From positions 1-38,263 of the forward strand of contig JACPGB010000013.1 of NCBI GenBank assembly GCA_016182655.1: a DNA stretch of 38,263 nucleotides, given 5' to 3'. The notes below the pieces were generated by a model. The model was given only the letters and a program-made list of their open reading frames with translations, had not been told where the DNA came from and searched no databases. How positions within the stretch are numbered: the stretch's first letter is position 1; each line of letters opens with the position of its first letter. Source of the stretch: Deltaproteobacteria bacterium. Lineage in GTDB: Bacteria > Desulfobacterota > GWC2-55-46. The position numbers were made by a program, and so were the translations under genes. This document shows positions 7,983 through 34,787 of this stretch, in pieces.

Positions 7983-7990
7983 ATGAAAGC

Positions 7991-8184: not shown

Positions 8185-8216
8185 AGTTCGTAATGAGGCG
8201 GCCTGCTTCTTTAACC

Positions 8217-8358: not shown

Positions 8359-8418
8359 TTTCGAGCATTTAGAGGTTACATCACGCACCGTCCAAAGAGG
8401 GCAGGGTATCTCTCTAAA

Positions 8419-8458
8419 CCTCCCCTCCCTTGACGGGAGGGGAATGAGGGGAGGGTGA
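8419..8458. repeat. Single A-type hairpin repeat
   Basis: One isolated A hairpin (CCCCTCCCTTGACGGGAGGGG followed by GAGGGGAGGG), 60 bp after composite copy 1. Confidence 0.75.
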
Positions 8459-8465
8459 GGTTTTT

Positions 8466-8552
8466 GTCATTGCGAGGAGCGCAAGCGACGAAGCAATCTC
8501 AAGGGGCTTATAACGCCAAAAGATGAGATTGCTTCACTTTATTCGCAATGAC
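8466..8552. repeat. 87-bp palindromic repeat (GTCATTGCGA ... TCGCAATGAC)
   Basis: Terminal inverted repeats GTCATTGCGA/TCGCAATGAC and inner arms GAAGCAATCTCA/TGAGATTGCTTC surround a short unpaired centre. This type of intergenic palindrome is widespread in bacterial genomes. A degenerate relative lies at 30340-30410 and a half copy at 30617-30647. Confidence 0.85.
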
Positions 8553-8581
8553 AGGCCTTGATTTATCAAGCAGCCAAGGCC

Positions 8582-9052: not shown

Positions 9053-9124
9053 CGCTTCCCCCCTGAAAAGAGGATATCGGAGGGGTTGGCCAAGTCAAGG
9101 CGAGGGGGCTTTTTGGGCAGGGCT

Positions 9125-9156
9125 TGTTGGGTTACGCTTCGCTAACCCAACCTACG
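9125..9156. repeat. Short hairpin repeat (GTTGGGTTACGC family)
   Basis: TTGGGTTACGC and GCTAACCCAA form a hairpin around a TTC loop, followed by CCTACG. Related copies lie at 9851-9883, 10350-10384, 10397-10430 and 11190-11222. Confidence 0.75.
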
Positions 9157-9180
9157 CTGACTTCTTAATTATCTGAGATC

Positions 9181-9324
9181 TCCCCTCCCTCGACGGGAGG
9201 GGATTGAGGGGAGGGTGTAATTATGGCGATTAAAAAGAAATACGACCTCCCCTGGCCCCTCCTTGTTAAGGAGGGGAGCCGTTTATCTCCTCCCCTTTTT
9301 TCAAGGGGAGGCGGGGAGGGGTCG
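9181..9324 (+). repeat. Three-hairpin composite repeat, copy 2 (order A-B-C)
   Basis: Same order and spacing as copy 1: A at 9181-9216, the linker with AAAAGAAATACGACC, B at about 9247-9279 and C at about 9287-9324. With the small hairpin at 9125 it fills the 328-base gap 9053-9380; I see no gene there. Confidence 0.85.
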
Positions 9325-9380
9325 TTTTGCCTTATAAGTTGCTCTTGAATAATAGGCCGCTGAAATCGTAAACTCCCATC

Positions 9381-9800
9381 ATGATACGCGTAACCGACAA
9401 GATCCAGATAGACGAAAGCGAGATACAGGAGGAGTTTGTCCGCTCGCGGGGCCCCGGCGGCCAGCATGTGAACAAGGTCTCGACGGCCGTGCAACTCCGT
9501 TTTGACATCAGGTCCTCGAAACTGCCTGAGGAGGTCAAGGAGAGGCTCATCCGCCTCGGGGGACACCGGGTCACCGAAGAGGGCGTCATCATAATCTCGG
9601 CGCAGGAGACGCGGAGCAGGGAGATGAACAGGGCCGAGGCGTTGGAAAAGCTCCTGGACCTTATCAGGAAGGCGACGGAGAGGCCCAAAAGAAGGATAAA
9701 GACAAGGCCGTCGCTCTCGGCCAAAAACAAGAGGGTCGTTGAGAAGAAAACAAGAGGCGGCACCAAAAAGATGAGGAGGAAGGTGAAGGGGGAGGAGTAG
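9381..9800 (+). CDS. arfB: Peptidyl-tRNA hydrolase ArfB (ribosome rescue factor)
   Basis: ArfB (YaeJ/ICT1) rescues ribosomes stalled without a stop codon by hydrolysing peptidyl-tRNA. At 139 residues it is the normal size for ArfB, much shorter than RF1/RF2. The catalytic loop RSRGPGGQHVNKVST (GGQ at about residues 26-28) is intact, and the C-terminal tail is very basic (RPKRRIKTRPSLSAKNKRVVEKK), as needed to enter the empty mRNA channel. It is the only plus-strand gene inside the otherwise minus-strand tetrapyrrole region and is flanked by repeats on both sides. Confidence 0.93.
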   Translation: MIRVTDKIQIDESEIQEEFVRSRGPGGQHVNKVSTAVQLRFDIRSSKLPEEVKERLIRLGGHRVTEEGVIIISAQETRSREMNRAEALEKLLDLIRKATERPKRRIKTRPSLSAKNKRVVEKKTRGGTKKMRRKVKGEE

Positions 9801-9883
9801 GGTTTGTGGTTGGGGTGGCTTTTTAGCCCAACAAAAATAAAAGGAAGAAATGTTGGGTTTCGCTGCGCTCAGCCCAACCTGCG

Positions 9884-10294
9884 TTACTCCTGTACGACCT
9901 TTGGCATAGGTCTTGGGTTCTTTTGTAAGCGATATTCAATTACTTCTTGAACCACAGTATCTTTACCATCGGATTTTATTTTTTGAATTTGTCGTTCTGA
10001 AGCCTCTATCGCCAAATTTCTACCATATGAACCTCGTGCGTTTGAAAGATAATAATCCAAAGTGGCGCGTTCCAGAGTGTAAAATTGTTGACCGCATTTG
10101 CTTTGTGCTGCTTCCGCAATCTCAAAAGCTGTTGCTTCAGATTCAGAATAGGTTTTAGCAGTAATGATCATACATTCAGCATAAGTTTTCATAGCAGTTT
10201 CCCATACGCCATATGCCGCCTCGTGGTTATCTTTTTGAGTTATGGCACAGCCCGTCGCAACTGCCAATATCAATGCTAAAAGTAAAAATCTCAT
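9884..10294 (-). CDS. Small AT-rich putative lipoprotein
   Basis: From ATG 10294, preceded by an AGGGGG-type Shine-Dalgarno, the product is 136 residues. It begins with a lipoprotein-like signal (MRFLLLALILAVATGC) and then a predicted helical, charged domain (ECMIITAKTYSESEATAFEI ... ERQIQKIKSDGKDTV). I do not recognise the family. The base composition is clearly more AT-rich than that of neighbouring genes, and hairpin repeats abut both ends (9851-9883 and 10350-10430), so it may be acquired DNA. An upstream extension in the same frame runs through repeat DNA and is not coding. Confidence 0.65.
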   Translation of the reverse strand: MRFLLLALILAVATGCAITQKDNHEAAYGVWETAMKTYAECMIITAKTYSESEATAFEIAEAAQSKCGQQFYTLERATLDYYLSNARGSYGRNLAIEASERQIQKIKSDGKDTVVQEVIEYRLQKNPRPMPKVVQE

Positions 10295-10442: not shown

Positions 10443-11150
10443 TTACCTCTTCCCCTTCTTCCCCGGGCACTGGACCGGGGTCTCGGTGTCGCTCGCGAGG
10501 TCGTGGCTGAAACATTTGGCCGGGATGTCCTGCATCCGGCACTCGTCGAGGAACATTTTTATAACCGCCGTCTTCCCCTCAATCGACAACATCTCGTACC
10601 CTATGGGGCTCTCCGATTTTTTGACAGGGACCTCTGCGCCCCGTTCCCCGTCGAAGATGTAGATGCCATAGGAGCAGTGCGCCTTTTTGTCTCCCACGGC
10701 CTTCAAATCGTCCATCCAGGTGTATTCCTCTATCTCGAACGGCGTCTCTTTCCATTTAAGGGTCTTGTTTAACGCGATCGCCTTCGGGGCGGCGTCTGCT
10801 TTCTCGGATGGGACGATGACGAAGTCGTCCTTCGGGCTGAAAATGAGCTTTCTGTAGATGTCCGCCTCGGTCAGGGTTTTCTTGTCGCCGGGGTCCCTGA
10901 AATTGACTGTACGGACGAGGCCGTCGGTGTCGAAGAAGCTTATCCGCCAGAGGGCGCGGGTGTCAGGGTCGACCTTCGCCTTTTTCGGCTCAACGGACCC
11001 TTTTACAAGCGTGAATGTGATCTCGAACCTGCCCGAAGGTGTGTGGATGGTCTTTTTGGCCATAGGGTTACCGAAGCCCATCGAGAGAAGGGCGAAAATG
11101 ACGGAGACTACGGGCAGGATGAGGCGCGCGGGGTTCAGGTGTTTTTTCAT
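10443..11150 (-). CDS. Hypothetical exported protein, tandem paralogue A
   Basis: From the ATG shared with its paralogue (MKKHLNPARLILPVVSVIFA) the protein has 235 residues. The N-terminus is a Sec-type signal or membrane anchor. The rest looks beta-rich and periplasmic, with four cysteines (KAHCSYG, DECRMQ, AKCFSH, VQCPG) that could form two disulfides. I do not recognise the family. It shares about 92% identity with the next gene upstream (18 differences in 235 residues), and the duplicated unit is 796 bp, including the upstream hairpin repeat. No function can be assigned. Confidence 0.75.
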   Translation of the reverse strand: MKKHLNPARLILPVVSVIFALLSMGFGNPMAKKTIHTPSGRFEITFTLVKGSVEPKKAKVDPDTRALWRISFFDTDGLVRTVNFRDPGDKKTLTEADIYRKLIFSPKDDFVIVPSEKADAAPKAIALNKTLKWKETPFEIEEYTWMDDLKAVGDKKAHCSYGIYIFDGERGAEVPVKKSESPIGYEMLSIEGKTAVIKMFLDECRMQDIPAKCFSHDLASDTETPVQCPGKKGKR

Positions 11151-11162
11151 GATGGTCTCGAT

Positions 11163-11222
11163 TGTAGGGTGGGCTTCGCCCACCAGTCCCGTAGGTCGGG
11201 TTAGCATGGCGTAACCCGACAT
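11163..11222. repeat. Hairpin repeats GTAGGGTGGGC and GTAGGTCGGGTTAGC
   Basis: The first hairpin (GGTGGGC TTC GCCCACC) is duplicated at 11958-11980 as part of the gene duplication. The second has a CGGGTTA/TAACCCG stem and is present only here, between the two paralogues. Confidence 0.8.
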
Positions 11223-11238
11223 CTTAAAATAACAACAA

Positions 11239-11946
11239 CTACCTCTTCCCCTTCTTCCCCGGACACTGGATTGGCGTCTCGGTGTCGCTGGCGAGGTCGT
11301 GGCTGAAGCATTTTGCCGGGATGTCCTGCATCCGGCACTCATCGAGGAACATCTTTATCGTCGCCGTCTTTCCTTCAATCGACAACATCTCATACCCTAT
11401 GGGGCTCTCCGATTTTTTTACCGGGACCTGCGCGCCCCGTTCCCCGTCGAAGATGTAGACGCCGTACGAGCAGTGCGCCTTCTTGTCTCCCACTGCCTTC
11501 AAGTCGTCCAGCCAGGTGTATTCTTCTATCTCGAACGGCGTTTCTTTCCATTTAAGTGTTTTGCTGAGCGCGATGGCCCTGGGGGCCGTGCCTGCGACCT
11601 CGGGCGGGACAATGACGAAGTCGTCCTTCGGGCTGAATACGAGCCTCCTGTAGATGTCCGCCTCGGTCAGGGCCTTTTTATCGCCGGGGTCCCTGAAGTT
11701 GACGGTACGGACGAGGCCGTCGGCGTCGAAGAAGCTTATCCGCCAGAGGGCGCGGGTGTCCGGGTCGACCTTCGCCCTCTTCGGCTCTATTGACCCTTTT
11801 ACAAGCGTGAATGTGATCTCGAACCTGCCCGAAGGGGTGTGGATGGTCTTTTTGGCCATAGGGTTCCCGAAGCCCATCGAGAGGAGGGCGAAAATGACGG
11901 AGACTACGGGCAGGATGAAGCGCGCGGGGTTCAGGTGTTTTTTCAT
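11239..11946 (-). CDS. Hypothetical exported protein, tandem paralogue B
   Basis: A 235-residue paralogue of the gene at 10443-11150, with the same signal region (MKKHLNPARFILPVVSVIFA), the same four cysteines and the same C-terminus (PIQCPGKKGKR). Most substitutions are conservative (V/I, K/R, L/F). The most divergent patch is IVPPEVAGTAPRA versus IVPSEKADAAPKA. Both copies keep full-length frames, so both are probably expressed, but no Shine-Dalgarno is clear at either start. The function is unknown; the pair could be periplasmic or membrane-tethered proteins of a lineage-specific family. Confidence 0.75.
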   Translation of the reverse strand: MKKHLNPARFILPVVSVIFALLSMGFGNPMAKKTIHTPSGRFEITFTLVKGSIEPKRAKVDPDTRALWRISFFDADGLVRTVNFRDPGDKKALTEADIYRRLVFSPKDDFVIVPPEVAGTAPRAIALSKTLKWKETPFEIEEYTWLDDLKAVGDKKAHCSYGVYIFDGERGAQVPVKKSESPIGYEMLSIEGKTATIKMFLDECRMQDIPAKCFSHDLASDTETPIQCPGKKGKR

Positions 11947-11957
11947 GATGGTCTCGA

Positions 11958-12432
11958 TTGTAGGGTGGGCTTCGCCCACCAGATCATTTTTTTGTAATCC
12001 CCCTCAATCCCCCTTTAGGAAAGGGGGAGGTAAAAGGACATTCTCCTTTATTCCTTTTTCATCAGGGGAGGCGATGCCGCAACTGGATTCCAGCTTGAAG
12101 CACGCGGGAATGACAGCTTTTGGTGGGAGGAGCCCACCAAACAAACCTTTAAGACGACCCCTCCCCACCTCCCCTTGTTAAGGGGAGGTGATAAAGCCCC
12201 CGGCATCCGTCTTCTGTTCCCCTCCTTACCAAGGAGGGGCAAGGGGAGGTCGTATTGTTTTTTACGATGGAATTCTTTCACCCTCCCCTTCATCCCCTCC
12301 CATCAAGGGAGGGGAGACACCGCAACTGGATTCCCGCTTTAAGCACGCGGGAATGACAGTTTTGGTGGGCGGAGCCCACCCTACAATCACAGAATACGCC
12401 CCTCTCCTTGTTAAGGGGAGGGGGCACGCTAA
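11958..12432. repeat. Mosaic of intergenic hairpin repeats
   Basis: This is part of the 699-base gap 11947-12645. In order: a GTAGGGTGGGC hairpin (11958-11980); a C-rich half repeat near 12000-12030; an ACTGGATTCC...GCGGGAATGACA element (12081-12116); a GGTGGG/CCCACC hairpin (12119-12140); composite copy 3 (12155-12316); a second ACTGGATTCCCGC...GCGGGAATGACAG element (12324-12359); an inverted GTGGGC hairpin (12360-12384); and a lone B/C-type hairpin (about 12402-12432). I see no gene. Confidence 0.75.
12155..12316 (-). repeat. Three-hairpin composite repeat, copy 3 (inverted orientation)
   Basis: It reads C-B-A on the plus strand, so A-B-C on the minus strand. A short insertion (about 15-20 nt, GATAAAGCCCCCGGCATCC) separates C and B. 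The B-A linker retains GGTCGTATTG...TTTTTTACG. Confidence 0.8.
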
Positions 12433-20917: not shown

Positions 20918-20993
20918 GGCGGTGTAGCTCAGTTGGCAGAGCAGGGGTCTCATAAGCCCCGCGTCGGTGGTTCGACTCCACCCACCGCCACCA
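20918..20993 (+). tRNA. tRNA-Met (anticodon CAT), elongator type
   Basis: A complete cloverleaf: acceptor GGCGGTG/CACCGCC, D arm GCTC...GAGC, anticodon stem GGGGT/GCCCC with loop CTCATAA, T arm GGTGG TTCGACT CCACC, and an encoded CCA. The paired G1-C72 argues against the initiator; tRNA-Ile with a modified CAT anticodon is not formally excluded. Confidence 0.95.
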
Positions 20994-21061
20994 GATATTT
21001 CAGACAATCCGATTTTTATAATGGGGTCAGGGCCGCCTCGGGATCAGGCGGCTTGGTATCA

Positions 21062-21102
21062 ATGGATACTTGACTTCTCATTATGGATATTTTATTATCC
21101 AT
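21062..21102 (+). promoter_or_regulatory. Promoter and ATGGATA operator of the HTH-MNT/HEPN operon
   Basis: TTGACT (21070-21075), a 17-nt spacer and TATTAT (21093-21098) form a good promoter. ATGGATA occurs at 21062-21068 and 21083-21089 (21 bp apart, two helical turns), and its complement TATCCAT at 21096-21102, so a palindrome covers the -10 box and a direct repeat flanks the -35. This is the layout expected for autorepression by the HTH antitoxin. Confidence 0.55.
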
Positions 21103-21104
21103 TC

Positions 21105-21713
21105 GTGAAGATACGCAGGGTCCTTGAATCCATATTCGGCAGTCCTGCAAAGGTAGGTATCCTCAGGGTGCTCTTTGTCTCCCCCCAGCCGTTGAGCGGA
21201 AGGCAGGTGGGGGAGCTTTCCGGGCTTACCCACAAAGGGGCGATACAGGCGTTGGGGTCTCTGGTCGAGCTCGGCGCGGTCAGGCAGCGAAGAGTCGGAA
21301 GGGCTTACCAGTACTCTCTCTCGAAGGGGAATATCTTTGTCGAAAAGATCATAGCCCCGTGCATCAAAGCGGAAAAAGGACTGCTTGATGATTTAAAAAA
21401 TGACATTGTCGCGCATTTCGGAAAGGATGCCGTCAGCCTTGTCCTGTACGGCAGTCTTGCCAGGGGCGAAGAGAAAAAGGGAAGCGATATAGACGTCATT
21501 GCCGTGGTAAGGGGTAAAAACGAAAAAACAGAGGTCGAGGAAAATGCCGCCTCGAAGGCCCCGTATTTTAACGAGAGATACGGCGGACTGCTGTCCCTTC
21601 AATGTTTTACTCTCGATGAGATTAAAAGAAGGAAGGCCCTGCCCCTTTTTAAATCCATAAAGAAAGAGGGGGTGCTTCTTTCCGGCAAGCCCCTTGGGGG
21701 AATATCCGGGTGA
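21105..21713 (+). CDS. HTH-nucleotidyltransferase (MNT) antitoxin of a HEPN/MNT module
   Basis: Residues ~1-75 form a winged helix (RVLESIFGSPAKVGILRVLF, GRQVGELSGLTHKGAIQALG). Residues ~90-200 form a minimal nucleotidyltransferase with the active-site signature YGSLARGEEKKGSDIDV (GS at 116-117, D128 and D130). In HEPN/MNT toxin-antitoxin pairs the MNT protein can neutralise the HEPN RNase by AMPylating it. I chose GTG 21105 because the family starts at this point and the promoter -10 lies just upstream; transcription would begin at or next to this codon, so the mRNA may be leaderless. ATG 21021 is an alternative giving 28 extra, odd residues. It overlaps the HEPN gene by 4 nt. Confidence 0.8.
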   Translation: MKIRRVLESIFGSPAKVGILRVLFVSPQPLSGRQVGELSGLTHKGAIQALGSLVELGAVRQRRVGRAYQYSLSKGNIFVEKIIAPCIKAEKGLLDDLKNDIVAHFGKDAVSLVLYGSLARGEEKKGSDIDVIAVVRGKNEKTEVEENAASKAPYFNERYGGLLSLQCFTLDEIKRRKALPLFKSIKKEGVLLSGKPLGGISG

Positions 21714-22120
21714 CAAAGAAGCGGAAGACGAGGGCCGTAGAGAAGAGCCAGTACCGAGCCTTTCTTTCAAAGGCGAATGACTTTGCATTCATGATGGAGA
21801 TGGCCCTTAAGGAGGGCAAGTGGAACTCAGCCGGGTTGCAGGCTGTCCATGCCGTGATCTCCGCCAGTGACGCCGTCATCGTGTATTACGGCGGCGTAAG
21901 AAGCTCGGAGCTTGACCACAGGGAGGTCGTCGGCCTGCTTCAAGATATCATAGGAGAGGACGCTTCGACCGCAGGCAGGCATGTAATAAGGGTTATCGGG
22001 AAAAAGAACCTTGTCGAGTACGAAGAAAGGGTTATCACACAAACAGAGGCAAGGGATATGGCGGATCATGCGAGAAGGTTTCTTGAATGGGCGGCTGGAA
22101 TGCTGCCAGGAAAGGATTAG
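21710..22120 (+). CDS. HEPN-domain protein, putative RNase toxin
   Basis: The 136-residue all-helical protein is translationally coupled to the MNT gene through a GTGA overlap. It carries FLSKANDFAFMMEMALKEG, AVHAVISASDAVIVYYGGVR and an R64-X5-H70 motif (RSSELDH), consistent with the RX4-6H RNase signature of HEPN proteins, then a C-terminal helix EARDMADHARRFLEWAAGM. It probably cleaves or otherwise disables RNA when free of its partner. The neighbouring orphan CRISPR array starts about 100 bp downstream, hinting at a small defence locus. The assignment rests on gene pairing and motif rather than close family recognition. Confidence 0.75.
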   Translation: MTKKRKTRAVEKSQYRAFLSKANDFAFMMEMALKEGKWNSAGLQAVHAVISASDAVIVYYGGVRSSELDHREVVGLLQDIIGEDASTAGRHVIRVIGKKNLVEYEERVITQTEARDMADHARRFLEWAAGMLPGKD

Positions 22121-22193
22121 GCGTTAGAGGATTATAGGGATGCAAGACCATATACCGCTACCGGATATTCAGTCAAGCTATTCGAAATAATAT

Positions 22194-22543
22194 TGGTGGG
22201 CGGAGCCCACCCTACGAGACTTGATGAATAAAGGATTGAAACATATTGTTGCCGAGGTCATCGGAGAGCGTGGACTGCCCCGTAAGGAACTAAGACTTGA
22301 TGAATAAAGGATTGAAACTTGGAGAGGCGGTTGCCGCCGTTCGTGCCGTCGAGTGTAAGGAACTAAGACTTGATGAATAAAGGATTGAAACGTCACAGCC
22401 TGAGGTACGAAGCCCTCTTCGTTGAACTTGTAAGGAACTAAGACTTGATGAATAAAGGATTGAAACGCAGTGGACCGAAACATCGAGATAACGATTAATA
22501 GGGCGTAAGGAACTAAGTCTTGTAGGGTGGGCTCGGCCCACCA
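22194..22543. repeat. 29-bp inverted repeat bracketing the CRISPR array
   Basis: The left arm 22194-22222 and the right arm 22515-22543 are reverse complements with 2 mismatches. Each consists of the dispersed GTAGGGTGGGC hairpin repeat plus 7 bases (AGACTT side) belonging to the CRISPR repeat. The rest of the 483-base gap 22121-22603 is the array and a terminator. Confidence 0.85.
22217..22522 (+). CRISPR. Orphan CRISPR mini-array: 3 full and 2 truncated 37-bp repeats, 4 spacers
   Basis: The repeat begins GTAAGGAACTAAGACTTG and ends ATGAATAAAGGATTGAAAC. Full copies at 22282-22318, 22355-22391 and 22430-22466 are identical. The first copy keeps only repeat bases 12-37 (22217-22242) and the last only bases 1-18 with one change (22505-22522). 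Spacers are 39, 36, 38 and 38 nt. The 3' ATTGAAAC end sets the plus-strand orientation and is common in type I and III arrays. No cas genes and no leader are present in the window. Confidence 0.97.
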
Positions 22544-22573
22544 AAAAAAAGCCCGGGTCAAAATCCCCCGGGC
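22543..22573 (-). terminator. Intrinsic terminator of the gene at 22604-23305
   Basis: On the minus strand a GCCCGGG/CCCGGGC stem with an 8-9 nt loop is followed by eight T. Its T run directly touches the right hairpin of the CRISPR bracket. Confidence 0.9.
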
Positions 22574-22603
22574 CATTCAATCAGAATCTTTTCAAACCTT
22601 CCT

Positions 22604-23305
22604 CTAATTCCTCACCGGCTGTTGCGGGTTGAAGACAAAGCTTATCCCGTGCGCCTTGTATGCGTCCCTGATGGCGTTGGTCGCGAGCTTATATGATTTA
22701 TCAAGCTCCTCAAGACAGCCGTAGTAGTTGTTATCCTCGAGCGCGGCGTGCGATATCATGAGAGAGTCCTGCGCCTCGGCGAGCTGTCTGAACGCGCTCT
22801 CGTCCGGGAACCTCCTAAGTATCCGCTCGGCCGTATTGATGAAGACGACCGCCTCCTCCATATTCTTCTTTATGGTGGTCTCCTTCTTCTCCGCCTCCCT
22901 CTTCTGGGTCTGGAAAGACTCCTCGTACATCACGAGCTCGCGCGTCTCCCAGTTCTGCTCGTTCGATACGAGTATCATAGCGTGCGTGGCCAGCTGGACG
23001 ACCTCTATGAAATCCTCGACCGAATAGGTGTACTGGGCGGTTTCGTAGTGGAATATCCCTTCCTTCATCATGAGCTGGGCGTTTTTCAAAAGAGAGGCCG
23101 CCTCCTTGTTTTCGCCCTGGGCGACTATCTTCTCGGCGGAGTTGAGGTAGGACTTGCTGCTCTCCATCTTGGTCAAAACATCGTTTTTTGCCCTGGTATC
23201 AGATTCGATGTTCGCGCCCTTATGCTCGGGATGGTCGTCGGCCATTGCGGAGGCCGCTAAAAAGATCATCAGCAGAAAGATGATAAAGACCGATTTTTTC
23301 GCCAC
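22604..23305 (-). CDS. Exported helical protein of unknown function
   Basis: From GTG 23305, which has GAGAGGTG a few bases upstream, the product is 233 residues with a clear signal peptide (VAKKSVFIIFLLMIFLAASAMA). A TTG at 23338 would put extra charged residues before the signal and is less likely. The mature part is almost wholly helical and rich in Glu, Lys and Ala (SSKSYLNSAEKIVAQGENKEAASLLK; LMISHAALEDNNYYGCLEEL), suggesting TPR-like or four-helix hairpins in the periplasm. I do not recognise the family. It is divergent from the cytochrome b gene; the 221-bp gap contains a CAAGCCC/GGGCTTG hairpin near 23434-23453. Confidence 0.75.
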   Translation of the reverse strand: MAKKSVFIIFLLMIFLAASAMADDHPEHKGANIESDTRAKNDVLTKMESSKSYLNSAEKIVAQGENKEAASLLKNAQLMMKEGIFHYETAQYTYSVEDFIEVVQLATHAMILVSNEQNWETRELVMYEESFQTQKREAEKKETTIKKNMEEAVVFINTAERILRRFPDESAFRQLAEAQDSLMISHAALEDNNYYGCLEELDKSYKLATNAIRDAYKAHGISFVFNPQQPVRN

Positions 23306-23526
23306 GGGACACCTCTCTTTAACCCGCCTGAACGCCAAGCTGGGTCGTTCTCAGGCGTTATAATAATCCCGCGCCCATTAAAAAATTATTAGACCTCAAG
23401 GCCATGCTTAAAAACCCAAAATATCAAGTGGTTGCAAGCCCATTCGGGGGCTTGTCCCCGGGGTTTAATAAAGTCTTAACCTTCAGGCTGATATAAGTTA
23501 TTTATACGCTGTAGAAGGGCAAAAAT

Positions 23527-24441
23527 ATGGACAAAAAACCGAATACCAAAAAGGCAAAAAAAGGCTCTATCGTAAAGTGGCTGTTCATAGTCCCGATTTC
23601 AGCGGCCATCGTCATACTGGGCTATGAGAACGCCACGCAACATTATTATCCCGCGTACAGCATCCTGAGCGCGTTGCACCGTAGCGGCCTCTTCACCTCG
23701 GTCCCGGCCCTGCACAGGCCGAGCAAAGGCATCTGGCTGCCGCTCGGGTGGCTCGGCGGCGGGATGATGTGCACCCTCATGGTCTACAGCCTCAGAAAAA
23801 GGGTGCACGCCCTGAACCGTCTCGGGTTGCTAAAGAACTGGCTCCTCGTCCATATATTCCTCGGCCTCATGGGGCCGACCCTCATAGTCTTCCATACGAC
23901 ATTCAAGCTGAACGGCCTCGTTGCCACGAGCTTCTGGGCCATGATAGTCACCATGTGCTTCGGGATGCTGGGCAGGTACATCTATGTGCAGATACCGCGC
24001 TCGATAAACGGCACGGAGCTGAAATCCGGCGACATAGACGCACTCGTCGCCTCGTTGGACAAGGACCTCGGGGAGATGCTTCCGGACGCAAAGCTCGGGA
24101 GCATGTTGGAGAAGATAATCGCGCCGGGCGCGGACGCGGCGTCCATGAACCCCCTTAAGGCGCTCTTTTTCTACATCCGGAACGACTTCGGCAACATGTA
24201 CCGGATAATGGAGCTGAAAGCGAAGCTCAAGAGCCAGTACAACCTGCCGGGTAGTGCGCGCCGCGAGATAGTCTCTGTCTTCAAAAGGAAGGCCGCGCTC
24301 GTAAGGAAAAGGAGCTTTCTTAAGACCTCGCAGACGCTCCTCAACTACTGGCATGTGATACACATACCGCTCGCCTTGCTCATGTTTTTTATTATGTTCC
24401 TGCACATCGCGGCCTACTTCATATTCAGACCGACGGTCTAA
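23527..24441 (+). CDS. Cytochrome b-like membrane protein, putative diheme quinone-interacting subunit
   Basis: The 304-residue protein has membrane segments near 17-35, 68-88, 104-124, 132-152 and 276-300. Histidines placed like heme ligands occur in KNWLLVHIFLG (H109), LIVFHTTFKLNG (H123), LLNYWHVIHIPLA (H276, H279) and FIMFLHIAAYF (H293), the usual arrangement of a b-type cytochrome bundle. A soluble loop of about 110 residues (160-270) splits the bundle. The next gene, 4 nt downstream, encodes a 26-heme cytochrome c, so the protein probably passes electrons between the quinone pool and the periplasmic hemes. The exact family is not recognised. Confidence 0.78.
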   Translation: MDKKPNTKKAKKGSIVKWLFIVPISAAIVILGYENATQHYYPAYSILSALHRSGLFTSVPALHRPSKGIWLPLGWLGGGMMCTLMVYSLRKRVHALNRLGLLKNWLLVHIFLGLMGPTLIVFHTTFKLNGLVATSFWAMIVTMCFGMLGRYIYVQIPRSINGTELKSGDIDALVASLDKDLGEMLPDAKLGSMLEKIIAPGADAASMNPLKALFFYIRNDFGNMYRIMELKAKLKSQYNLPGSARREIVSVFKRKAALVRKRSFLKTSQTLLNYWHVIHIPLALLMFFIMFLHIAAYFIFRPTV

Positions 24442-24445
24442 AAAG

Positions 24446-26482
24446 ATGTCTAAAAAGCCCTTCAACGGAGCGGCCGGCAGGGAGTCTCTCAAAGCCCTGC
24501 CGATTCGCGCTTTCTTATTAACGGCGCTCGTCCTCTCCGCGCTCTCATGCGTCCTGCCGGCCCGCGCCATCGGGGCCGACACCACGGGCTGGCTATTCAG
24601 CCCCGGCGAGCTTTCGAAAAAACACTCCAAATACGAGGGCATGGGGAACTGCACCCTCTGCCACACCGTGGGTAGCGGCGTGACGGCCGGGAAGTGCCTT
24701 GACTGCCACGACAAGCTCGCCGAGCGCATAAAGAGGAACGAGGGCGTGCATGCGCGCTTCAAGGACCCCTGCATAACCTGCCACGCCGAGCACCAGGGCA
24801 AGGACCACAGCCTCATAAATATAAAAGAGAAGGAGTTCAAGCACGATCTCACCGGCTTTATCCTCAAGGGCAAGCACACCGCGCTAGAGTGCAGGAAGTG
24901 CCATAAAACGCAGGGCGTCTACTCGGGCCAGGTAAGGGAGTGCGTCTCCTGCCACAAGGACAAGCACGAAAAACAGCTTGGGACAGAGTGCAGCAGGTGC
25001 CACGAGCCGGACGGGTGGAAGGAGAAGCTCAAATTCAGCCACGACAAGGACAGCAGATTTACGCTTAAAGGGGCCCACACCAGGCTCTCATGCTCGAAGT
25101 GCCATGTGAACGGGCGTTTCAAGCTGGAGTACAACAGTTGCGGCACCTCCGATTGCCACGGGGACAAGCACAAGGGGCAGTTCGGGAAAAGGGAGTGCAC
25201 CGAGTGCCACAAGAGCACGATGGAGAAGTGGGACTTGGCCGACTCTTTCGACCATTCCGTCGCGGCCTTTTCACTCAAGGGGAAACACGCGAAGCTCGTC
25301 TGCGCCAAATGCCATGTGAACAAGAAGTTCAAGCCCCTTGAGCACTCGACCTGCGGGGCCGCCAACTGCCACGGGGACAGGCACAAGGGCCAGTTCGGGG
25401 AGAAGCAGTGCACAGAGTGCCACTCGAAGACTATAGAATCGTGGTCCGCCAGGGACACGGTAGAGCATTATAAACTGAACTTCAGGCTCCGGGGCCGCCA
25501 CGACCAGATAGAGTGTGCCAAGTGCCATGTGAACGGCAAGTTCAAGTCGATGGAGTACGGGAGCTGCGGTGTCGCCGCCTGCCACGGAGACTTTCATAAA
25601 GGCCAGACGAGCAACAAGGCGTGCACCTTCTGCCATCTCGACGACATCGTTTCATGGAAGATAAGGGGGATATTCGACCATTCCAGGGTCTCGGAGTTCG
25701 AGCTCAAAGGGCGGCACGCGAAGCTTGAGTGCGGCAAATGCCACAAGAAGGGGCATCTTAAGCCCATCGAGCACGGTAGCTGCGGCGCGGCCAACTGCCA
25801 CGGTGACAGGCACAAGGGCCAGACCGGAAGTAAGCCATGCCTCGAATGCCACGACAAGGCGTCCTTCAACTGGAGGATATACAAGGACTTCGACCACGCC
25901 GCTAAAACGGAGTTCGAGCTCAAGGGCAGGCACCTGAAGGTGGAATGCTCGAAGTGCCACGCAAAGGGCCGCCTTAAGCCGCTTGAGCACAAGACCTGCG
26001 GCGGCCCCAACTGTCATTCGCACGACCACAGGAAGAAGGTCGAGGGCAAGGCCTGCGCCGACTGCCACGACCGGGGCTCCAATACATGGAATGTCCCGCA
26101 GGAGGTCTTCGACCACGGGAAAGAGACCAGATACGCGCTTACCGGCAGGCACGCCGAGCTCTGGTGCTCGCAATGCCACAAGGGAGAGAGGTTCAAATTC
26201 GACGGGTGCGTGGCCTGCCACGGGCCAAAGGACCCGCATGAGAAGCTCCTCGGTGTGACATGCGACAAGTGCCACACGCCCGAGGGCTGGAAGAAGGTGA
26301 ACTTCGACCACGACAGGGACACGACATTCCCGCTCGTCAGGGAACACGCGGTGAAGGAGTGCATCAGGTGCCACAGCACCAAGGTATTCGCCGATACGCC
26401 GAAGAAATGTGAGAGCTGTCACGGGAAGACCGGGACAGGCAACATACTGCCGCGCTACAGGGATTACGAGGGCATGCCGTAA
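24446..26482 (+). CDS. 26-heme c-type cytochrome with five tandem triheme repeats
   Basis: The 678 residues begin with a signal sequence (AFLLTALVLSALSCVLPARA). I count 21 CxxCH and 5 CX4CH motifs (CGTSDCH, CGAANCH twice, CGVAACH, CGGPNCH), i.e. 26 potential hemes, about one per 26 residues. The central part is a repeat of ~68 residues, five times over: CxKCHvngkfk, then CGxxxCHGDxHKGQ, then CtxCH, then a FDHS..F.LkGrHaklE stretch that supplies distal histidines. CX4CH is known from cytochrome c3. It should act as an electron wire in the periplasm. It is coupled to the cytochrome b gene; its last 19 bases overlap the convergent FeS/FAD gene. Confidence 0.95.
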   Translation: MSKKPFNGAAGRESLKALPIRAFLLTALVLSALSCVLPARAIGADTTGWLFSPGELSKKHSKYEGMGNCTLCHTVGSGVTAGKCLDCHDKLAERIKRNEGVHARFKDPCITCHAEHQGKDHSLINIKEKEFKHDLTGFILKGKHTALECRKCHKTQGVYSGQVRECVSCHKDKHEKQLGTECSRCHEPDGWKEKLKFSHDKDSRFTLKGAHTRLSCSKCHVNGRFKLEYNSCGTSDCHGDKHKGQFGKRECTECHKSTMEKWDLADSFDHSVAAFSLKGKHAKLVCAKCHVNKKFKPLEHSTCGAANCHGDRHKGQFGEKQCTECHSKTIESWSARDTVEHYKLNFRLRGRHDQIECAKCHVNGKFKSMEYGSCGVAACHGDFHKGQTSNKACTFCHLDDIVSWKIRGIFDHSRVSEFELKGRHAKLECGKCHKKGHLKPIEHGSCGAANCHGDRHKGQTGSKPCLECHDKASFNWRIYKDFDHAAKTEFELKGRHLKVECSKCHAKGRLKPLEHKTCGGPNCHSHDHRKKVEGKACADCHDRGSNTWNVPQEVFDHGKETRYALTGRHAELWCSQCHKGERFKFDGCVACHGPKDPHEKLLGVTCDKCHTPEGWKKVNFDHDRDTTFPLVREHAVKECIRCHSTKVFADTPKKCESCHGKTGTGNILPRYRDYEGMP

Positions 26483-27765
26483 TGGGTCTCGATTTTAAGC
26501 CCGATGGATTTGAGGAATGCGTTGGGGAGCTCGCCGCCGGCGAATACATAAATGTAGTCGTTCGGGACGGTCTCGATGGCCCCGGCGACGTCCAGCTTGG
26601 CTTCCTTCGGTAGTATCTCGGTCACGTTGGAATTGAGGACGAGCTTCACGCTCCCCTTTTTAACGGCCTCGTCAAGGCGCGTCTTGTTGCCCGCCTTGAT
26701 GCGCCCGAAGGTGTCCTTGCGGTATGAGAGTATTACTTCATTGCCCTCGGCGGCGATGGCCATCGCCGCCTCGACGGCGCTGTCGCCTCCGCCCACGACT
26801 ATCACTTTTTCGTTCTTGTGCTGTGCCGGGTCTATGAGCCTGTAGGAGACCTTGGGCATGCTTTCGCCTGGCACGCCGAGCTTTCTGGGCGTTCCCCTTC
26901 TGCCGAGGCAAAGGAGGAGTTTCCGCGTAGTGTACTCCCCGCCTGCTGTCTTTACCTTAAATCCGTCCGGCAGGGTCTCTACACCCGTCAGCTTCTCCTT
27001 CGTGTTTATCTTGAGCCCCGTGTCCTGTTTTATCTTGTTCCAGAGCTCCATGATCGTCTCTTTGGTCGTCTCCCTGAACTGCACCTTTCCGTACAAAGGC
27101 AGTTCGACGGGCGCGGTCATGACGATTTTGCGCACCGGGAAGTTGGCCACCGTGCCGCCGAACTCATCCTGGTCGATGAACAGGTAATTGAGCTTTTTTT
27201 CCATTGCCTTCAGGGTCGCCCCAATACCGGCCGGCCCCGCGCCAACGACGAGGACGTCGTAGACCCCGGCGCTTGCCGCGCCCGCGTCCTTGAGGCTCTC
27301 GGCCATGTTGTTCATGGCCTGAATGCCCTGGACGAGCGAGTTCCTTATAAGCCCCATGCCCCCGAGCTCACCCGCTATGTATATGCCCTTGACGTTCGTC
27401 TCGAAGTACGGGTCGACGTACGGTATCTCAACGCCCCTTTTAGCGGTGCCGAAGACGAGCGTTATCGCGCCGACCGGACAGGCGAGCGCGCAGGCGCCGT
27501 GCCCGACGCACATCGATGCGTTTATGAGCCTGCCCTTGCCGTTTGAGAGACCTATGACGTCCTTTTCATGGCAGGCCTTGACGCACGCGCCGGACCCGAT
27601 GCACTTGTTCGGGTCGATGTAGGGGTGGAGGGAGATGGGCTCGTAAGTGCCGCATTCTTTCGCCTCCTTGACCTTCTCGGAGACGACGGCATGTTTCTTT
27701 TTCTCGTGGCGGATGAATATAGAGAGCGCTATCGCGAAGAGTATTATCGTGACAAGGATGACCAT
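26464..27765 (-). CDS. Membrane-anchored FeS/FAD pyridine-nucleotide oxidoreductase (thioredoxin reductase-like fold)
   Basis: The 433-residue protein has an N-terminal membrane helix (MVILVTIILFAIALSIFI), a two-cluster ferredoxin domain, the segment GIYIAGELGGMGLIRNSLVQ, then an FAD domain (VLVVGAGPAGIGAT) and an NAD(P) domain (VIVVGGGDSAVEAAMAIA). The two FeS motifs are C55-x5-C61-x3-C65 (CIGSGACVKAC) and C86-x5-C92-x3-C96P (CVGHGACALACP). In each, the usual second cysteine is Ser or His, so the clusters may be 3Fe-4S or non-Cys-ligated. The thioredoxin reductase CxxC is absent (FIDQDEFGGTVANFP), so it is not a disulfide reductase. It probably exchanges electrons between NAD(P)H and the cytochrome module encoded convergently. 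Confidence 0.85.
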   Translation of the reverse strand: MVILVTIILFAIALSIFIRHEKKKHAVVSEKVKEAKECGTYEPISLHPYIDPNKCIGSGACVKACHEKDVIGLSNGKGRLINASMCVGHGACALACPVGAITLVFGTAKRGVEIPYVDPYFETNVKGIYIAGELGGMGLIRNSLVQGIQAMNNMAESLKDAGAASAGVYDVLVVGAGPAGIGATLKAMEKKLNYLFIDQDEFGGTVANFPVRKIVMTAPVELPLYGKVQFRETTKETIMELWNKIKQDTGLKINTKEKLTGVETLPDGFKVKTAGGEYTTRKLLLCLGRRGTPRKLGVPGESMPKVSYRLIDPAQHKNEKVIVVGGGDSAVEAAMAIAAEGNEVILSYRKDTFGRIKAGNKTRLDEAVKKGSVKLVLNSNVTEILPKEAKLDVAGAIETVPNDYIYVFAGGELPNAFLKSIGLKIETHYGMPS

Positions 27766-28040
27766 ATGGATTGCCTCGGGGTTTATTTTATCATACCCGC
27801 GGGATCCTTAAAACTGCATTAGAAAACCCTGGAGTATGCCCGGGTGGGCCTGGCCGGTAAGGGATGGAGATGGAAAACGGCAGGGTTTTATGGAATCAGA
27901 CAAAATCTTTATAATTCAAGGAATCTGGTTGCGCCCTGCGGGACCGCATCCGAAATAAATTCATGAGATATGGTATGCTATTTATTAAATAGTCCCTTTA
28001 TACTACTTGCTGAAATATGGCAGGGTCCCGGAGGTTAAAT

Positions 28041-28205
28041 ATGAAACTGAATATACAAGTAATGAAAACTGAAAAGACTCTTGAAAAAATGTTTTCGGTT
28101 GAATTAACCGGGGACAGAAGCAAGGGTTTAGCCTCCTTTGAGAAACTCTCCATCGAGTTGTATATATGGGCTTGTGAAGAAGGATTATTTGAAGAAACAA
28201 AATGA
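28041..28205 (+). CDS. Small hypothetical protein (54 residues)
   Basis: The ATG at 28041 has an ideal Shine-Dalgarno (GGAGG at 28030-28034, 6 nt spacing), which decides this start over a longer one at 28017. The product, MKLNIQVMKTEKTLEKMFSV then ELTGDRSKGLASFEKLSIEL, ends in an acidic tail (WACEEGLFEETK). It has no membrane segment and one cysteine. I do not recognise it. The local composition is AT-richer than the flanking genes. No terminator or partner gene is evident; 220 bp without clear features separate it from uup. Confidence 0.55.
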   Translation: MKLNIQVMKTEKTLEKMFSVELTGDRSKGLASFEKLSIELYIWACEEGLFEETK

Positions 28206-28425
28206 GGAGACAATACGCGGAACGCCCGGTGGGATAATATAGAATACCTTTTCTAAAAAAACTCGTACCATTTCGCGTTAACCTCGATGCTCGTCTTGTC
28301 CCCAAGCCCACAGTAAGCTTTTCAAATTTGTTTTCCGCTTAGCCTTTTAACGCAAGTTCGCCCTTGTCTTTGGGAGGCGGTAAGTTTAAGATTAAGGGTC
28401 TGGAATACCGTACGGAAGAAGGACG

Positions 28426-30312
28426 ATGGCCTTAATAAATTTACGAAAGATATCGCTGGGTTTCGGGAGCCCGAGGCTCCTTGACGGTGTCGACCTGCAG
28501 ATAGAGAAGGGCGAGCGGGTCTGCCTCGTCGGGCGTAACGGCGCCGGAAAATCGACCCTTATGCGCCTTATAAGCGGCGAAGTCCAGCCGGACGGAGGTG
28601 AAATCACCCGCGCGCCGGGGCTCAAGGCCGCCGTCCTCTCGCAGGAGGTCCCAAAGGACCTGACAGGGACCGTCTTCGATGTGATAACCGGAGGGCTCGG
28701 CGACGTACACGGGCTCATGGCCGAGTATCACGCGGCGGTTAGCGCCTGCGAGGCGGGCGGAGAAAAGGAGCTTGCCGAGCTTGAGCGGATACATCACGAG
28801 CTGGAGACAAGGGGCGCGTGGCTCTCTACCCAGAGGGTCGAAACCGTGATATCGAGGCTCAAACTCCCGGCGGACGCGGAGTTTTCAGAGCTCTCGGGCG
28901 GGTATAAAAGAAGGGTGCTCCTTGGGATGGCGCTTGTCGCCGAGCCCGACCTCCTCTTGCTTGACGAGCCGACAAACCACCTCGACATGGACTCCATCGA
29001 CTGGATCGAGGAGTTCCTTTTGGGCTACCGTGGGACGCTTTTGTTCGTGACGCACGACAGGATGCTCATGCAGAAGCTCGCTACCCGCATAATCGAGCTC
29101 GACAGGGGCCGCCTCATGAACTGGCAATGCGATTACGGCGAGTACCTCAAGAGGAAAGAAAACCTCCTCAATTCAGAGACCCAGCAGAACGCCCTTTTTG
29201 ACAAAAAACTCTCGGAGGAAGAGGCCTGGGTGCGGCAGGGCGTCAAGGCCCGGAGGACCAGGAACGAGGGCCGCGTCCGGGCGCTCATCGAGATGAGAAA
29301 GCAGAGGGCCGAGCGGCGTGACCTCGAAGGGTCCGCAAGGATAAGGACGCAAGAGGCGGACATCTCCGGGAAGCTCGTCATAGAGGCGAAGGGGATCGGG
29401 TTTTCGTATGGCGACCGCCCCATCATCAATGATTTCTCGACCGTGATCATGCGGGGGGACAAGGTCGGCATCATGGGGCCGAACGGCTCGGGGAAGACTA
29501 CGCTACTTAACCTACTCCTCGGAAAACTCGAACCCGCAACCGGCACCGTCCGCCTCGGCACGCGCCTTGAGGTCTCGTACTTCGACCAGCTCAGGGCTAC
29601 GCTCGATGAGGAGAGGACCGTGCAGGACAACATCGCGGACGGCAACGACCAGATAATAATAGACGGCAAGCCCCGTCACATAATCGGCTACCTCCAGGAC
29701 TTTCTCTTTACGTCCGACAGGGCGAGGACCCCGGTAAAGGTGCTCTCGGGCGGTGAGAGGAACAGACTGCTCCTCGCGAAGCTCTTCTCAAGGCCATCGA
29801 ACCTGCTTGTCATGGACGAGCCGACGAACGACCTCGATATCGAAACGCTCGACCTCCTCGAAGACATCATCGTCGAATACCCCGGGACGGTCCTCCTCGT
29901 AAGCCATGACAGGACTTTTCTTAATAACGTCGTAACGAGCACGATGGTCTTCGAGAGCAACGGATTGAACGAATATATCGGCGGATACGACGACTGGCTT
30001 CGCCAGAGGCCGCAGGCGGAAGAGAAGATCGATAAGAAGCCCAAAAGAGAGAAGCCTAAAAAAGAGAGGGCAGTAAAGTTGAGCTTCAATGAAGAGAGGG
30101 AGCTAAAGGACCTGCCCGAGAAGATAGAGTCGCTTGAGACGGAACAGGGCGTCCTATACGGCACCATGTCCGACCCCGCCTTTTACAGGCAGGGCGGGCA
30201 AAAAACGGCAGAGGCCAAGGCGCGGATGGCGGAGATAGAGGCGACCCTTAAGGCGTCTTACGCGAGGTGGGAAGAGCTGGAGGCGAGAAAAGACGCGTCC
30301 GCGGGGGCTTAG
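28426..30312 (+). CDS. uup: ABC-F family ATPase Uup
   Basis: The 628-residue soluble protein has two ABC ATPase domains. Domain 1 has Walker A GRNGAGKST (about 36-44), signature LSGGYKRR and LLDEPTNHLD. Domain 2 has Walker A GPNGSGKTT, signature LSGGERNR and MDEPTNDLD. An inter-domain charged linker (KARRTRNEGRVRALIEMRKQ) is the P-site tRNA interaction region of ABC-F proteins. The C-terminal basic and coiled region (KLSFNEERELKDLPEKIESL ... ARWEEL) marks it as Uup rather than EttA. ABC-F proteins act on the ribosome; Uup also affects transposon excision and replication-linked tolerance. ATG with AAGGA close upstream. Confidence 0.93.
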   Translation: MALINLRKISLGFGSPRLLDGVDLQIEKGERVCLVGRNGAGKSTLMRLISGEVQPDGGEITRAPGLKAAVLSQEVPKDLTGTVFDVITGGLGDVHGLMAEYHAAVSACEAGGEKELAELERIHHELETRGAWLSTQRVETVISRLKLPADAEFSELSGGYKRRVLLGMALVAEPDLLLLDEPTNHLDMDSIDWIEEFLLGYRGTLLFVTHDRMLMQKLATRIIELDRGRLMNWQCDYGEYLKRKENLLNSETQQNALFDKKLSEEEAWVRQGVKARRTRNEGRVRALIEMRKQRAERRDLEGSARIRTQEADISGKLVIEAKGIGFSYGDRPIINDFSTVIMRGDKVGIMGPNGSGKTTLLNLLLGKLEPATGTVRLGTRLEVSYFDQLRATLDEERTVQDNIADGNDQIIIDGKPRHIIGYLQDFLFTSDRARTPVKVLSGGERNRLLLAKLFSRPSNLLVMDEPTNDLDIETLDLLEDIIVEYPGTVLLVSHDRTFLNNVVTSTMVFESNGLNEYIGGYDDWLRQRPQAEEKIDKKPKREKPKKERAVKLSFNEERELKDLPEKIESLETEQGVLYGTMSDPAFYRQGGQKTAEAKARMAEIEATLKASYARWEELEARKDASAGA

Positions 30313-32669: not shown

Positions 32670-33287
32670 TTGGCAATCGGGCTCAATCAGGTACATCGTC
32701 TGGATACCATAAATACCTACTCGATAAACGGCGCGAGGCTCGCGACCGGCGACCTCATATGCACGCATGACGGCGGGCCGTCGCCAAGGCTCCCGGGCTT
32801 GTTGTGGGGGCTCGTCGGGCTCCTGATCCCCGGCGAGGTCGACCACATAGCCGTATACGTCGGGCCGGGCGGGAGGTGCGTCGAGGCCGGCGGCAGGTTC
32901 AGGATAAGGAAGTTCTCGGCGCCGGAGACCTGGGACGGCGGAAGGATGTATAAGGAGAGGGGCTTTGTCGATTCGTTTCTCGGCGCGGCTTACCCGCTCG
33001 CGGGAAGGGGTCTGACAAAGGCGCGGGAAAAGGAGATACGGCTGAGCGTCGCGGACTACTGCCTCAGGCAGGCCGAGGCCGGGAAATATTACAACTTCAA
33101 TTTTTTCGACTCGAATACCGAAAAGAGGTTTTACTGCAGTCAGCTCGCCTACAAGGCCTACCTTGAAAACGGGATCGACCTCAATACCGGGAGGCGTTTT
33201 CTCGGCATTCCCGGGACGGAGCCTATTATATTCCCGCAGGAGATCTGGGACGCCTGCGCCAATGAGCGCGGAAGGTGTTGTAGATAG
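32670..33287 (+). CDS. YiiX/YebB-like permuted NlpC/P60 cysteine hydrolase
   Basis: The 205-residue protein has the circularly permuted NlpC/P60 order, His before Cys: ARLATGDLICTHD, then EVDHIAVYVGPGGRCVEAGG (H59, E72), then KRFYCSQLAYKAYLENGIDL (C156 as nucleophile). Members cleave amide or ester bonds in cell-wall peptides or lipids; no signal peptide is seen, so it may act in the cytoplasm or on the inner leaflet. The start is a TTG with AAGGAG only 2 nt away, an unusually short spacing. No better in-frame start exists before the domain, so the first residues are uncertain. It converges on the S24 regulator. Confidence 0.82.
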   Translation: MAIGLNQVHRLDTINTYSINGARLATGDLICTHDGGPSPRLPGLLWGLVGLLIPGEVDHIAVYVGPGGRCVEAGGRFRIRKFSAPETWDGGRMYKERGFVDSFLGAAYPLAGRGLTKAREKEIRLSVADYCLRQAEAGKYYNFNFFDSNTEKRFYCSQLAYKAYLENGIDLNTGRRFLGIPGTEPIIFPQEIWDACANERGRCCR

Positions 33288-33355: not shown

Positions 33356-34021
33356 TCAATAGCTCTGGTACAGCCAGACGACCTTGCCTATTACGAACTG
33401 CGTGCTCAGGTCCCCGGCATAGACAGCCGTGTGGGGAAAAGTCGGGTTGTCGGGTTTTAAAACCACCTTGTCGGGGTGGATGAAGACCCGCTTGATGCTA
33501 ACGCCCTCGAAGTTCAGCCACACGGCGTAGATGTCGCCGCTAATGAGCCGCTTGTCATTGACGTCCACCCCGACGGTCGCGTCGTGGTGGATATTCGGCG
33601 CCATAGCCTCGCCCCTTACCCTCAAGGCCAAGGGCCCTTTCACATAATCCTTTTTCGGGACCATCACGCTGTCCATGGGGTCTGTGCCGGGAAAGTTATC
33701 CGGGCCCCCCGCGGACAGCATGTCATAGACCTTTACGCAGACGAAGTGCTCTCCGAATGCGGCCCTCGGCTCGCAGGCGTGTTCGGTGTTGATCATGTCG
33801 TAGCTCGACATGGGCCCTGAGCCGGTAAGGAGCCAGTCGAGCTTCACCCCGCCGATAAAGGAGATCTTGCGGAGCGCCGTTATATCCGGGTTCCGTTTGT
33901 CCTTTTCGTAGTCGCTAATAGTGGCCACCCTGTTGAAATCAAGCCTCTTTGCAAATTCCGCCTGATTGACTTTCAGGATCTCCTGCCTGACATAGCGTAT
34001 TCTTTCACCGAGGGTTGACAT
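33356..34021 (-). CDS. Phage-type HTH/S24 repressor with catalytic Ser replaced by Ala
   Basis: Residues 1-70 form an XRE-type helix-turn-helix (NQAEFAKRLDFNRVATISDY, EKDKRNPD). Residues ~95-221 form an S24/LexA-CI peptidase domain. VKVYDMLSAGGPDNF holds an Ala-Gly pair (104-105) at the usual self-cleavage site, and VSIKRVF keeps the catalytic lysine (K177). However the nucleophile motif, normally GDSMxP, reads RGEAMAP with Ala at 139, so RecA-induced self-cleavage should be impossible. It would be a non-inducible repressor or a ligand-responsive regulator. It is divergent from the CI-type gene at 34223; no Shine-Dalgarno is evident. Confidence 0.88.
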   Translation of the reverse strand: MSTLGERIRYVRQEILKVNQAEFAKRLDFNRVATISDYEKDKRNPDITALRKISFIGGVKLDWLLTGSGPMSSYDMINTEHACEPRAAFGEHFVCVKVYDMLSAGGPDNFPGTDPMDSVMVPKKDYVKGPLALRVRGEAMAPNIHHDATVGVDVNDKRLISGDIYAVWLNFEGVSIKRVFIHPDKVVLKPDNPTFPHTAVYAGDLSTQFVIGKVVWLYQSY

Positions 34022-34035
34022 AAAAATACAGTTGG

Positions 34036-34077
34036 GCGTAAAGTTTCACTTGACATTTATACGCAGTAGCGTAAAAT
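34036..34077 (+). promoter_or_regulatory. Divergent promoter/operator between the two phage-type regulators
   Basis: Plus-strand promoter TTGACA (34050-34055), 16-nt spacer, TAAAAT (34072-34077). Half-sites GCGTAAA at 34036-34042 and 34069-34075, with an inverted TTTATACGC at 34056-34064, surround it, so a repressor bound there would cover the -35 and -10. A transcript would have a leader of about 140 nt containing an AGGAGG...CCTCCT hairpin. Confidence 0.5.
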
Positions 34078-34222
34078 CATGTGATGCTCTTGGTAAGAAG
34101 TTCAGGAGGTCTTTAAACATACAAGATTTTGGAGTCCTCCTTATAGCATTTAGCCGTCTTTCAGTCAATACGCAACCGGAAAAAAAAGATAAAAATATAA
34201 CGAAAGGGGTTTTGAGCAGGAG

Positions 34223-34675
34223 ATGGCCGTTAATTATTCAAAGATATTTGACAGGATGCTCAAGGCGGGCGGGTTGAAGAACGGGTCTCAGCTGGCTAAG
34301 GCCCTTGGCGTCTCTCCGCAGGCGGTCTCTAATTACAAAAAAAGGGGGGAGTTGCCTGCGAGCCTCATTTTCAAATTCGCGGAGACGTACAGCGTCTCTA
34401 TCGACTGGCTCCTTAACGGCACGGCCAACACCGGGCGGATGACGGAGCTCGCGAAACCCGCGTACGCGCTTGAAGCGGACGACTATTATTCCGTCGAGAG
34501 GACCGACAAGCCCGAGTGCCCGTCGAGCATAAACGACCTCATGATGCTCACGCCGGACGAGATCATCTACGTAGGTAGGCTCCTTAAGGTACTCCGGGGC
34601 CCGGAAAAGTACGTGCCCGCCGTAAAGGTCTGCATAGACTCGTTTTTAAAGGCGGGGGAGAAGCCGAACAGTTGA
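34223..34675 (+). CDS. CI-repressor-type HTH protein
   Basis: In this 150-residue protein, residues ~5-65 match the phage CI repressor helix-turn-helix domain (FDRMLKAGGLKNGSQLAKAL, GVSPQAVSNYKKRGELPASL, SVSIDWLLNG). The rest (about 70-150) is a small acidic and helical region without an S24 peptidase, so it is a short repressor or a Cro-like antagonist of the divergent S24 protein. AGGAG directly abuts the ATG and AAGGGG lies further upstream, so the start is a little uncertain. No other phage genes are near; the pair may be a domesticated switch. Two terminators follow. Confidence 0.82.
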   Translation: MAVNYSKIFDRMLKAGGLKNGSQLAKALGVSPQAVSNYKKRGELPASLIFKFAETYSVSIDWLLNGTANTGRMTELAKPAYALEADDYYSVERTDKPECPSSINDLMMLTPDEIIYVGRLLKVLRGPEKYVPAVKVCIDSFLKAGEKPNS

Positions 34676-34682
34676 GAGGGGC

Positions 34683-34706
34683 GCCGCCTTAGGCGGCCCT
34701 TTTTTC
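34683..34706 (+). terminator. Intrinsic terminator after the CI-type gene
   Basis: GCCGCC TTA GGCGGC stem, then CCTTTTTTC on the plus strand. Confidence 0.85.
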
Positions 34707-34725
34707 GAGACCATGAGACAGGCGA

Positions 34726-34758
34726 GGGCGGCCCTTCCGAGAGGGGCCGCCCGTATTT
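34726..34758 (+). terminator. Second terminator-like hairpin
   Basis: GGGCGGCCC (34726-34734) pairs with GGGCCGCCC (34744-34752), followed by GTATTTTT. It may back up the preceding terminator; its T run is on the plus strand, so it is less suited to the convergent permease gene. Confidence 0.65.
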
Positions 34759-34787
34759 TTATGTGCCGCGTCCCCTTTCAGAACCCA

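Follow-up and report, generated by a model that had tools for sequence, protein, structure and literature searches.

Introduction

Three kinds of described system come closest to the locus reported here. The first is formed by GTAG-type REP elements and their transposases. A GTAG beside a short palindrome is the defining feature of a REP (PMC3733652, PMC8266576), and the REP transposase TnpAREP cuts at CT (PMC8266576). The second is formed by inverted REP doublets, described as BIMEs or REPINs (PMC3116915). The third is the type III-A (Csm) CRISPR-Cas system with a satellite array in trans. In the literature searched, we found no report of REP-CRISPR junctions, and papers on REPs touch CRISPR only in passing.

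The locus lies in a 38,263-nt stretch of DNA (hereafter, the window) from a draft deltaproteobacterial genome that is 97.6% complete and consists of 60 contigs. Here, a short CRISPR array is joined on both sides to REPs. Our preferred reading, to which we assign a probability of roughly 0.6, is that the array is a leaderless type III-A satellite fragment located at a breakpoint and joined to the heads of two REPs, of which the left one was there earlier.

A truncated CRISPR array shares its repeat with a type III-A locus

Three identical 37-bp repeats on the forward strand of the window (22282-22318, 22355-22391, and 22430-22466) alternate with four spacers of 39, 36, 38, and 38 nt (22243-22281, 22319-22354, 22392-22429, and 22467-22504, same strand). 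Direct repeats separated by unique spacers of regular length identify this stretch as a CRISPR array. Both outermost repeats are truncated: the first remnant (22217-22242) corresponds to repeat bases 12-37 and the last (22505-22522) to bases 1-18 with an A14→T substitution. At both truncations, in opposite orientation, stands the same GTAGGGTGGGC hairpin, and an inverted repeat of 30 nt, mismatched at two positions, surrounds the array (22193-22222/22515-22544, 93% complementary). A first-pass annotation, made from the sequence alone, had described these repeats, spacers, truncations, and hairpins, and its description proved exact when the coordinates were checked. Compared to a complete type III-A array, the window array has only three full repeats, truncated repeats at both ends, and no leader adjoining its first repeat, where the left REP and the tRNA flank stand instead. 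The lack of a leader weakens the claim that the array is complete, and only that claim.

The array had been called an orphan. This is refuted by the presence in the same genome, on contig C31, of a second array with an identical 37-mer repeat and nine spacers, which directly follows the csm5 gene of a cas6-csm1-csm2-csm3-csm4-csm5 type III-A locus. The accompanying statement that cas genes and a leader are missing thus holds for the window but not for the genome. The spacers of the window array (36 to 39 nt) and the 3′ end of its repeat, ATTGAAAC, which is common in type III repeats, are also in line with a type III-A satellite. Unlike the repeat, the spacers differ: none is common to the two arrays.

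A search that recovered Cas1 from 9 of 14 control genomes detected none in the window genome. Growth of either array in the usual way is therefore not to be expected, except if cas1 is encoded in a missing part of the genome. None of the other genomes searched within the genus and the family carries the 37-bp repeat, which was found, at ≤2 mismatches, in only one class-level relative (G055). The type III-A module was therefore probably acquired horizontally.

The C31 array starts directly after the csm5 stop codon (L035 13901-13930), without a leader. Its first repeat is also shortened at the 5′ end, with homology from base 13, and there is no REP at that place. Both arrays of the genome adjoin an MNT-HEPN pair, which is located to the left of the window array (window 20967-22120) and, as an NTP_transf_2 plus HepT-like pair, to the right of the C31 array (L035 14697-15358).

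The hairpins at the array ends are GTAG-type REPs

At ≤1 mismatch, GTAGGGTGGGC occurs five times in the window compared to 0.71 expected, a count reached in 0 of 100 shuffles. The genome contains 22 matches at ≤2 mismatches, including those of a second stem type (GTGCGC). As in known REPs, GTAG is followed by a 7-bp perfect stem with a 3-nt loop, and the element is multicopy in its own and in related genomes, being present through the genus and the family in the related genomes searched. The dispersed hairpin at the array ends is thus a GTAG-type REP. Three proteins encoded in the genome score above the NCBIfam cut-off for the REP-associated tyrosine transposase (RAYT), NF047646, and are candidate cognates of the array-flanking REP; one of the three genes has a REP of the second stem type ~1 kb away. 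The family differs from known GTAG REPs in having a motif of its own, AGYC, ~6 nt before GTAG and in numbering tens of copies rather than hundreds.

The left REP (22194-22221, reverse strand) consists of the core GTAGGGTGGGCTCCGCCCACC at 22195-22215 and the head AGTCTC at 22216-22221, which faces the array. The right REP (22516-22542, forward strand) has the head AGTCTT at 22516-22521 and the core GTAGGGTGGGCTCGGCCCACC at 22522-22542.

Two minor observations concern other REP copies. Two adjacent reverse-strand genes at window 10443-11979 have near-identical 5′ regions and a REP equally far upstream of each, which looks like a tandem duplication that took its REP along. Apparently the same REP differs in its head between two relatives, a tandem GTAGTCTC-GTAGTCTC being present in G004 and none in G003 (L155 and L132).

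The array-flanking REPs face each other in an unusual orientation

Among close REP pairs of the genus (members ≤60 nt apart, in the stretches read), 11 of 12 are tail-to-tail; the twelfth (L038) was scored as tandem on the basis of a degenerate copy. Normal close pairs have 9 to 29 nt between their members. The array-flanking REPs, in contrast, are arranged head-to-head, 310 nt apart. Another head-to-head pair was scored in L046, where the second member is a weak match. As in BIMEs and REPINs, the two REPs at the array are inversely oriented; unlike in those doublets, their heads point toward each other across 310 nt of CRISPR DNA, and neither the spacing nor the orientation is the usual one. 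The array with its REPs is therefore not a normal REP-bounded unit, and a REPIN-type unit was rejected as a candidate.

The same data bear on the earlier proposal that the array was transferred in one piece, flanked by inverted ends. Such a transfer, in which a 350-bp REP-array-REP segment would behave as an enlarged REPIN-like composite and carry the array to the tRNA-Met site, could be imagined since inverted REPs abut both array ends and the genome encodes RAYTs. However, the normal pairs are tail-to-tail with short spacing, the segment occurs once in the genome, and the left REP is already present in a sister species (see below), making this scenario highly improbable.

The 7-mer shared by the two junctions belongs to the REP head

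The remnants start at repeat base 12 and end at repeat base 18, and so have bases 12-18 in common (AGACTTG/AGTCTTG). This had been taken for a possible target duplication and the single mismatch in the last remnant for a hint of conversion. The sequence match is real; the CRISPR origin of bases 12-18 on both sides is not secure, AGTCT(C/T) being a recurrent 5′ head of the REP family. Among 62 REP copies aligned with their flanks, 21 have AGYC at positions −6 to −3 before GTAG, and conservation falls at −7. AGTCT at −6 is present in 5 of 60 copies when the array pair is left out. A REP in G001 (G001:C43, AGTCTTGTAGGGTGGGCTCGGCCCACCA) is identical to the right-hand head plus core, with no CRISPR sequence nearby. 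Since the motif precedes GTAG in REPs away from the array, the shared 7-mer, judged from these alignments, is REP head and not a target duplication, which leaves the latter unsupported. To our knowledge, duplications are not expected from IS200/REP-type single-strand transposition. Likewise, both AGTCTC on the left and AGTCTT on the right can be REP sequence, so that A14→T does not call for conversion. Gene conversion of the last repeat was rejected on this ground.

The boundaries of the array have to be read accordingly. Repeat bases 12-16 in the first remnant are common with the left REP head, and CRISPR identity is therefore certain only from 22222. On the right, the 3′-truncated repeat is assigned bases 1-13 (22505-22517, forward strand) and is certain to base 11, A12-G13 being common with the REP head.

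The AGYC motif may be either part of the mobile element or its preferred target. No clean empty REP site was found when 24 joined REP flanks were searched for in five genomes of the genus; most cross-genome matches turned out to be orthologous REPs or dispersed repeats of other kinds.

The CRISPR repeat contains a single near-palindrome, AAGACTT, that resembles the REP head: it has AGTCT on the bottom strand and one mismatch to AGTCTTG on the top strand. Both junctions fall on it. When REP heads from elsewhere were combined with random repeat positions, an overlap as good as that observed arose in 0.16% of pairings for the left junction and 0.13% for the right. The joins were thus probably guided by sequence. 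Because TnpAREP cuts at CT and the shared motif terminates in CT at either junction, cutting by RAYT is possible; we consider it and microhomology recombination about equally likely as the joining route.

The left REP probably predates the array at the tRNA-Met site

The left anchor of the locus is a tRNA-Met (CAT) gene predicted by ARAGORN (20918-20993, forward strand), which is kept in G001, G002, and G003. It is followed on the same strand by an open reading frame for an MNT nucleotidyltransferase (20967-21713; PF01909, E = 3.7e-9; PADLOC PDC-S09 and PDC-M05A), whose listed start overlaps the tRNA and whose true start is probably further in, and by the gene for its HEPN partner (21710-22120; PF05168, E = 2e-5), absent from the site in G001 and G003 as judged by synteny. 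At 22153-22176 (forward strand), the tRNA 3′ end and flank occur a second time in degenerate form, ACCGCTACCGGATATTCAGTCAA; by alignment, this copy is the orthologue of what immediately follows the tRNA in G003. The MNT-HEPN pair, lying between the tRNA and this copy (window 20994-22176), resembles a small insertion at a tRNA site from which no integrase remains.

In the sister species G003, tRNA-Met is followed by the flank, an orthologue of the left REP, and GAGACT, which align with window 22153-22221, but not by an array. Beyond the REP is unrelated DNA and then a repressor-like gene matching that at window 33356. The order in G001 is the same, with a damaged REP; G002 has neither REP nor array within 400 nt from the tRNA start. 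No array was thus present at this site in G001, G002, or G003. The presence of the left REP at the same place without the array indicates that it is probably the older of the two. Alternatively, an ancestral array could have been lost in G003, its AGTCTC being a remnant. By our reading of the sequences, G003 and G001 retain a C-terminal remnant of the window gene 32670-33287, so these lineages did lose DNA here; gain of the array in the window lineage is therefore likely but not proved.

These comparisons also bear on whether two REPs could have been inserted separately by RAYT into a once longer array, after the CT of AAGTCT/AAGACT, with subsequent loss of the outer parts. Both junctions are located directly after AAGWCT, the CT specificity of TnpAREP would fit, AGYC enriched upstream of GTAG could be a target motif, and three RAYT genes are at hand. 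Yet the left REP of G003 occupies the same tRNA-Met flank without CRISPR sequence, no array remains outside the REPs, and the repeat has AGAC rather than AGYC on its top strand, so that the right side requires an additional A→T change. We consider separate insertions unlikely. The earlier suggestion of a decaying array hit twice by a palindromic element is therefore retained in part: the decaying fragment, the two palindromic elements, and the boundaries inside repeats stand, while a hit on the left side is not supported, given the G003 REP.

To the right of the array, an intrinsic-terminator-like hairpin with a T run (22543-22574, reverse strand), read from the sequence and not among the terminator scan matches, is located downstream of a conserved gene with no family assigned (22604-23338, reverse strand). 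The block containing this gene (22566-28808) is found at another locus in G001, without the array. The left and right blocks adjoin nowhere but here, and with REPs being repeats and the genome a draft, one may suspect that two contigs were misjoined across a REP during metagenome assembly. Against this, the array is well inside the contig, the 30-bp repeats are shorter than an ordinary read, and the sequences that border the extra block in the window genome (G000), tRNA-Met (20918) on one side and the genes at 33356-37430 on the other, are contiguous in G001 and G003. The window contig is thus coherent and represents a locus with an insertion, and an assembly artefact is highly improbable.

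Proposed origin of the locus

According to our preferred reading, a small leaderless satellite fragment derived from the genome's own type III-A system would have arrived after a REP was already established beside tRNA-Met. The fragment may have been trapped at the breakpoint of two chromosomal blocks, each ending in a GTAG-type REP, and linked to both REPs at their 5′ (head) ends through the AAGACTT of the CRISPR repeat, whose likeness to the head AGTCT(C/T) on both strands could have served recombination at microhomology or, alternatively, cutting by RAYT after CT. A bolder version, which we regard as quite doubtful, is that RAYT recognizes AAGWCT in CRISPR repeats, cuts after CT on either strand, and thereby trims arrays, splices them to REP ends, and relocates working mini-arrays.

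If the joining was RAYT-driven, the locus would be a rare natural record of REP transposase cut sites and would link REP transposases to the way in which CRISPR arrays break up and spread. If microhomology recombination was responsible, the locus is a tidy case of a satellite array in decay where a rearrangement has its breakpoint, and it cautions that the conserved end of a repeat element can mimic a target-site duplication.

Spacers and possible use of the array

The array and the HEPN gene share a strand, the array starting 96 bp downstream and the left REP lying between them; no promoter-like site was found on the array (forward) strand. Transcription by read-through from MNT-HEPN, processing by the C31 Cas6, and loading into the Csm complex are possible but putative.

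Spacer targets were sought in IMG/VR, with four 22-mers as exact strings and with one degenerate pattern, and in phages by BLAST; none was found, and the CRISPR repeat core was absent from the viral contigs searched. Spacer 1 is identical at 29 of 33 nt to a type I-E spacer of G003 over the full length of the latter (G003:C18:14244-14276; L103 745-777). By our reading, the opposite strand carries an open frame, GQ[S/Y]TLSDDLGN, in which three of the four differences are synonymous, suggesting that the type III-A fragment and the type I-E system of G003 probably target one gene. Type III systems need a crRNA that is antisense to the target mRNA, and the crRNA of spacer 1 is predicted to be so.

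The type I-E array of G003 (G003:C18) has 82 repeats in the stretch read. Genes of phage head type (phrog_220) break its continuity (L178 ~7268-10070), which suggests that phage DNA was inserted within it.
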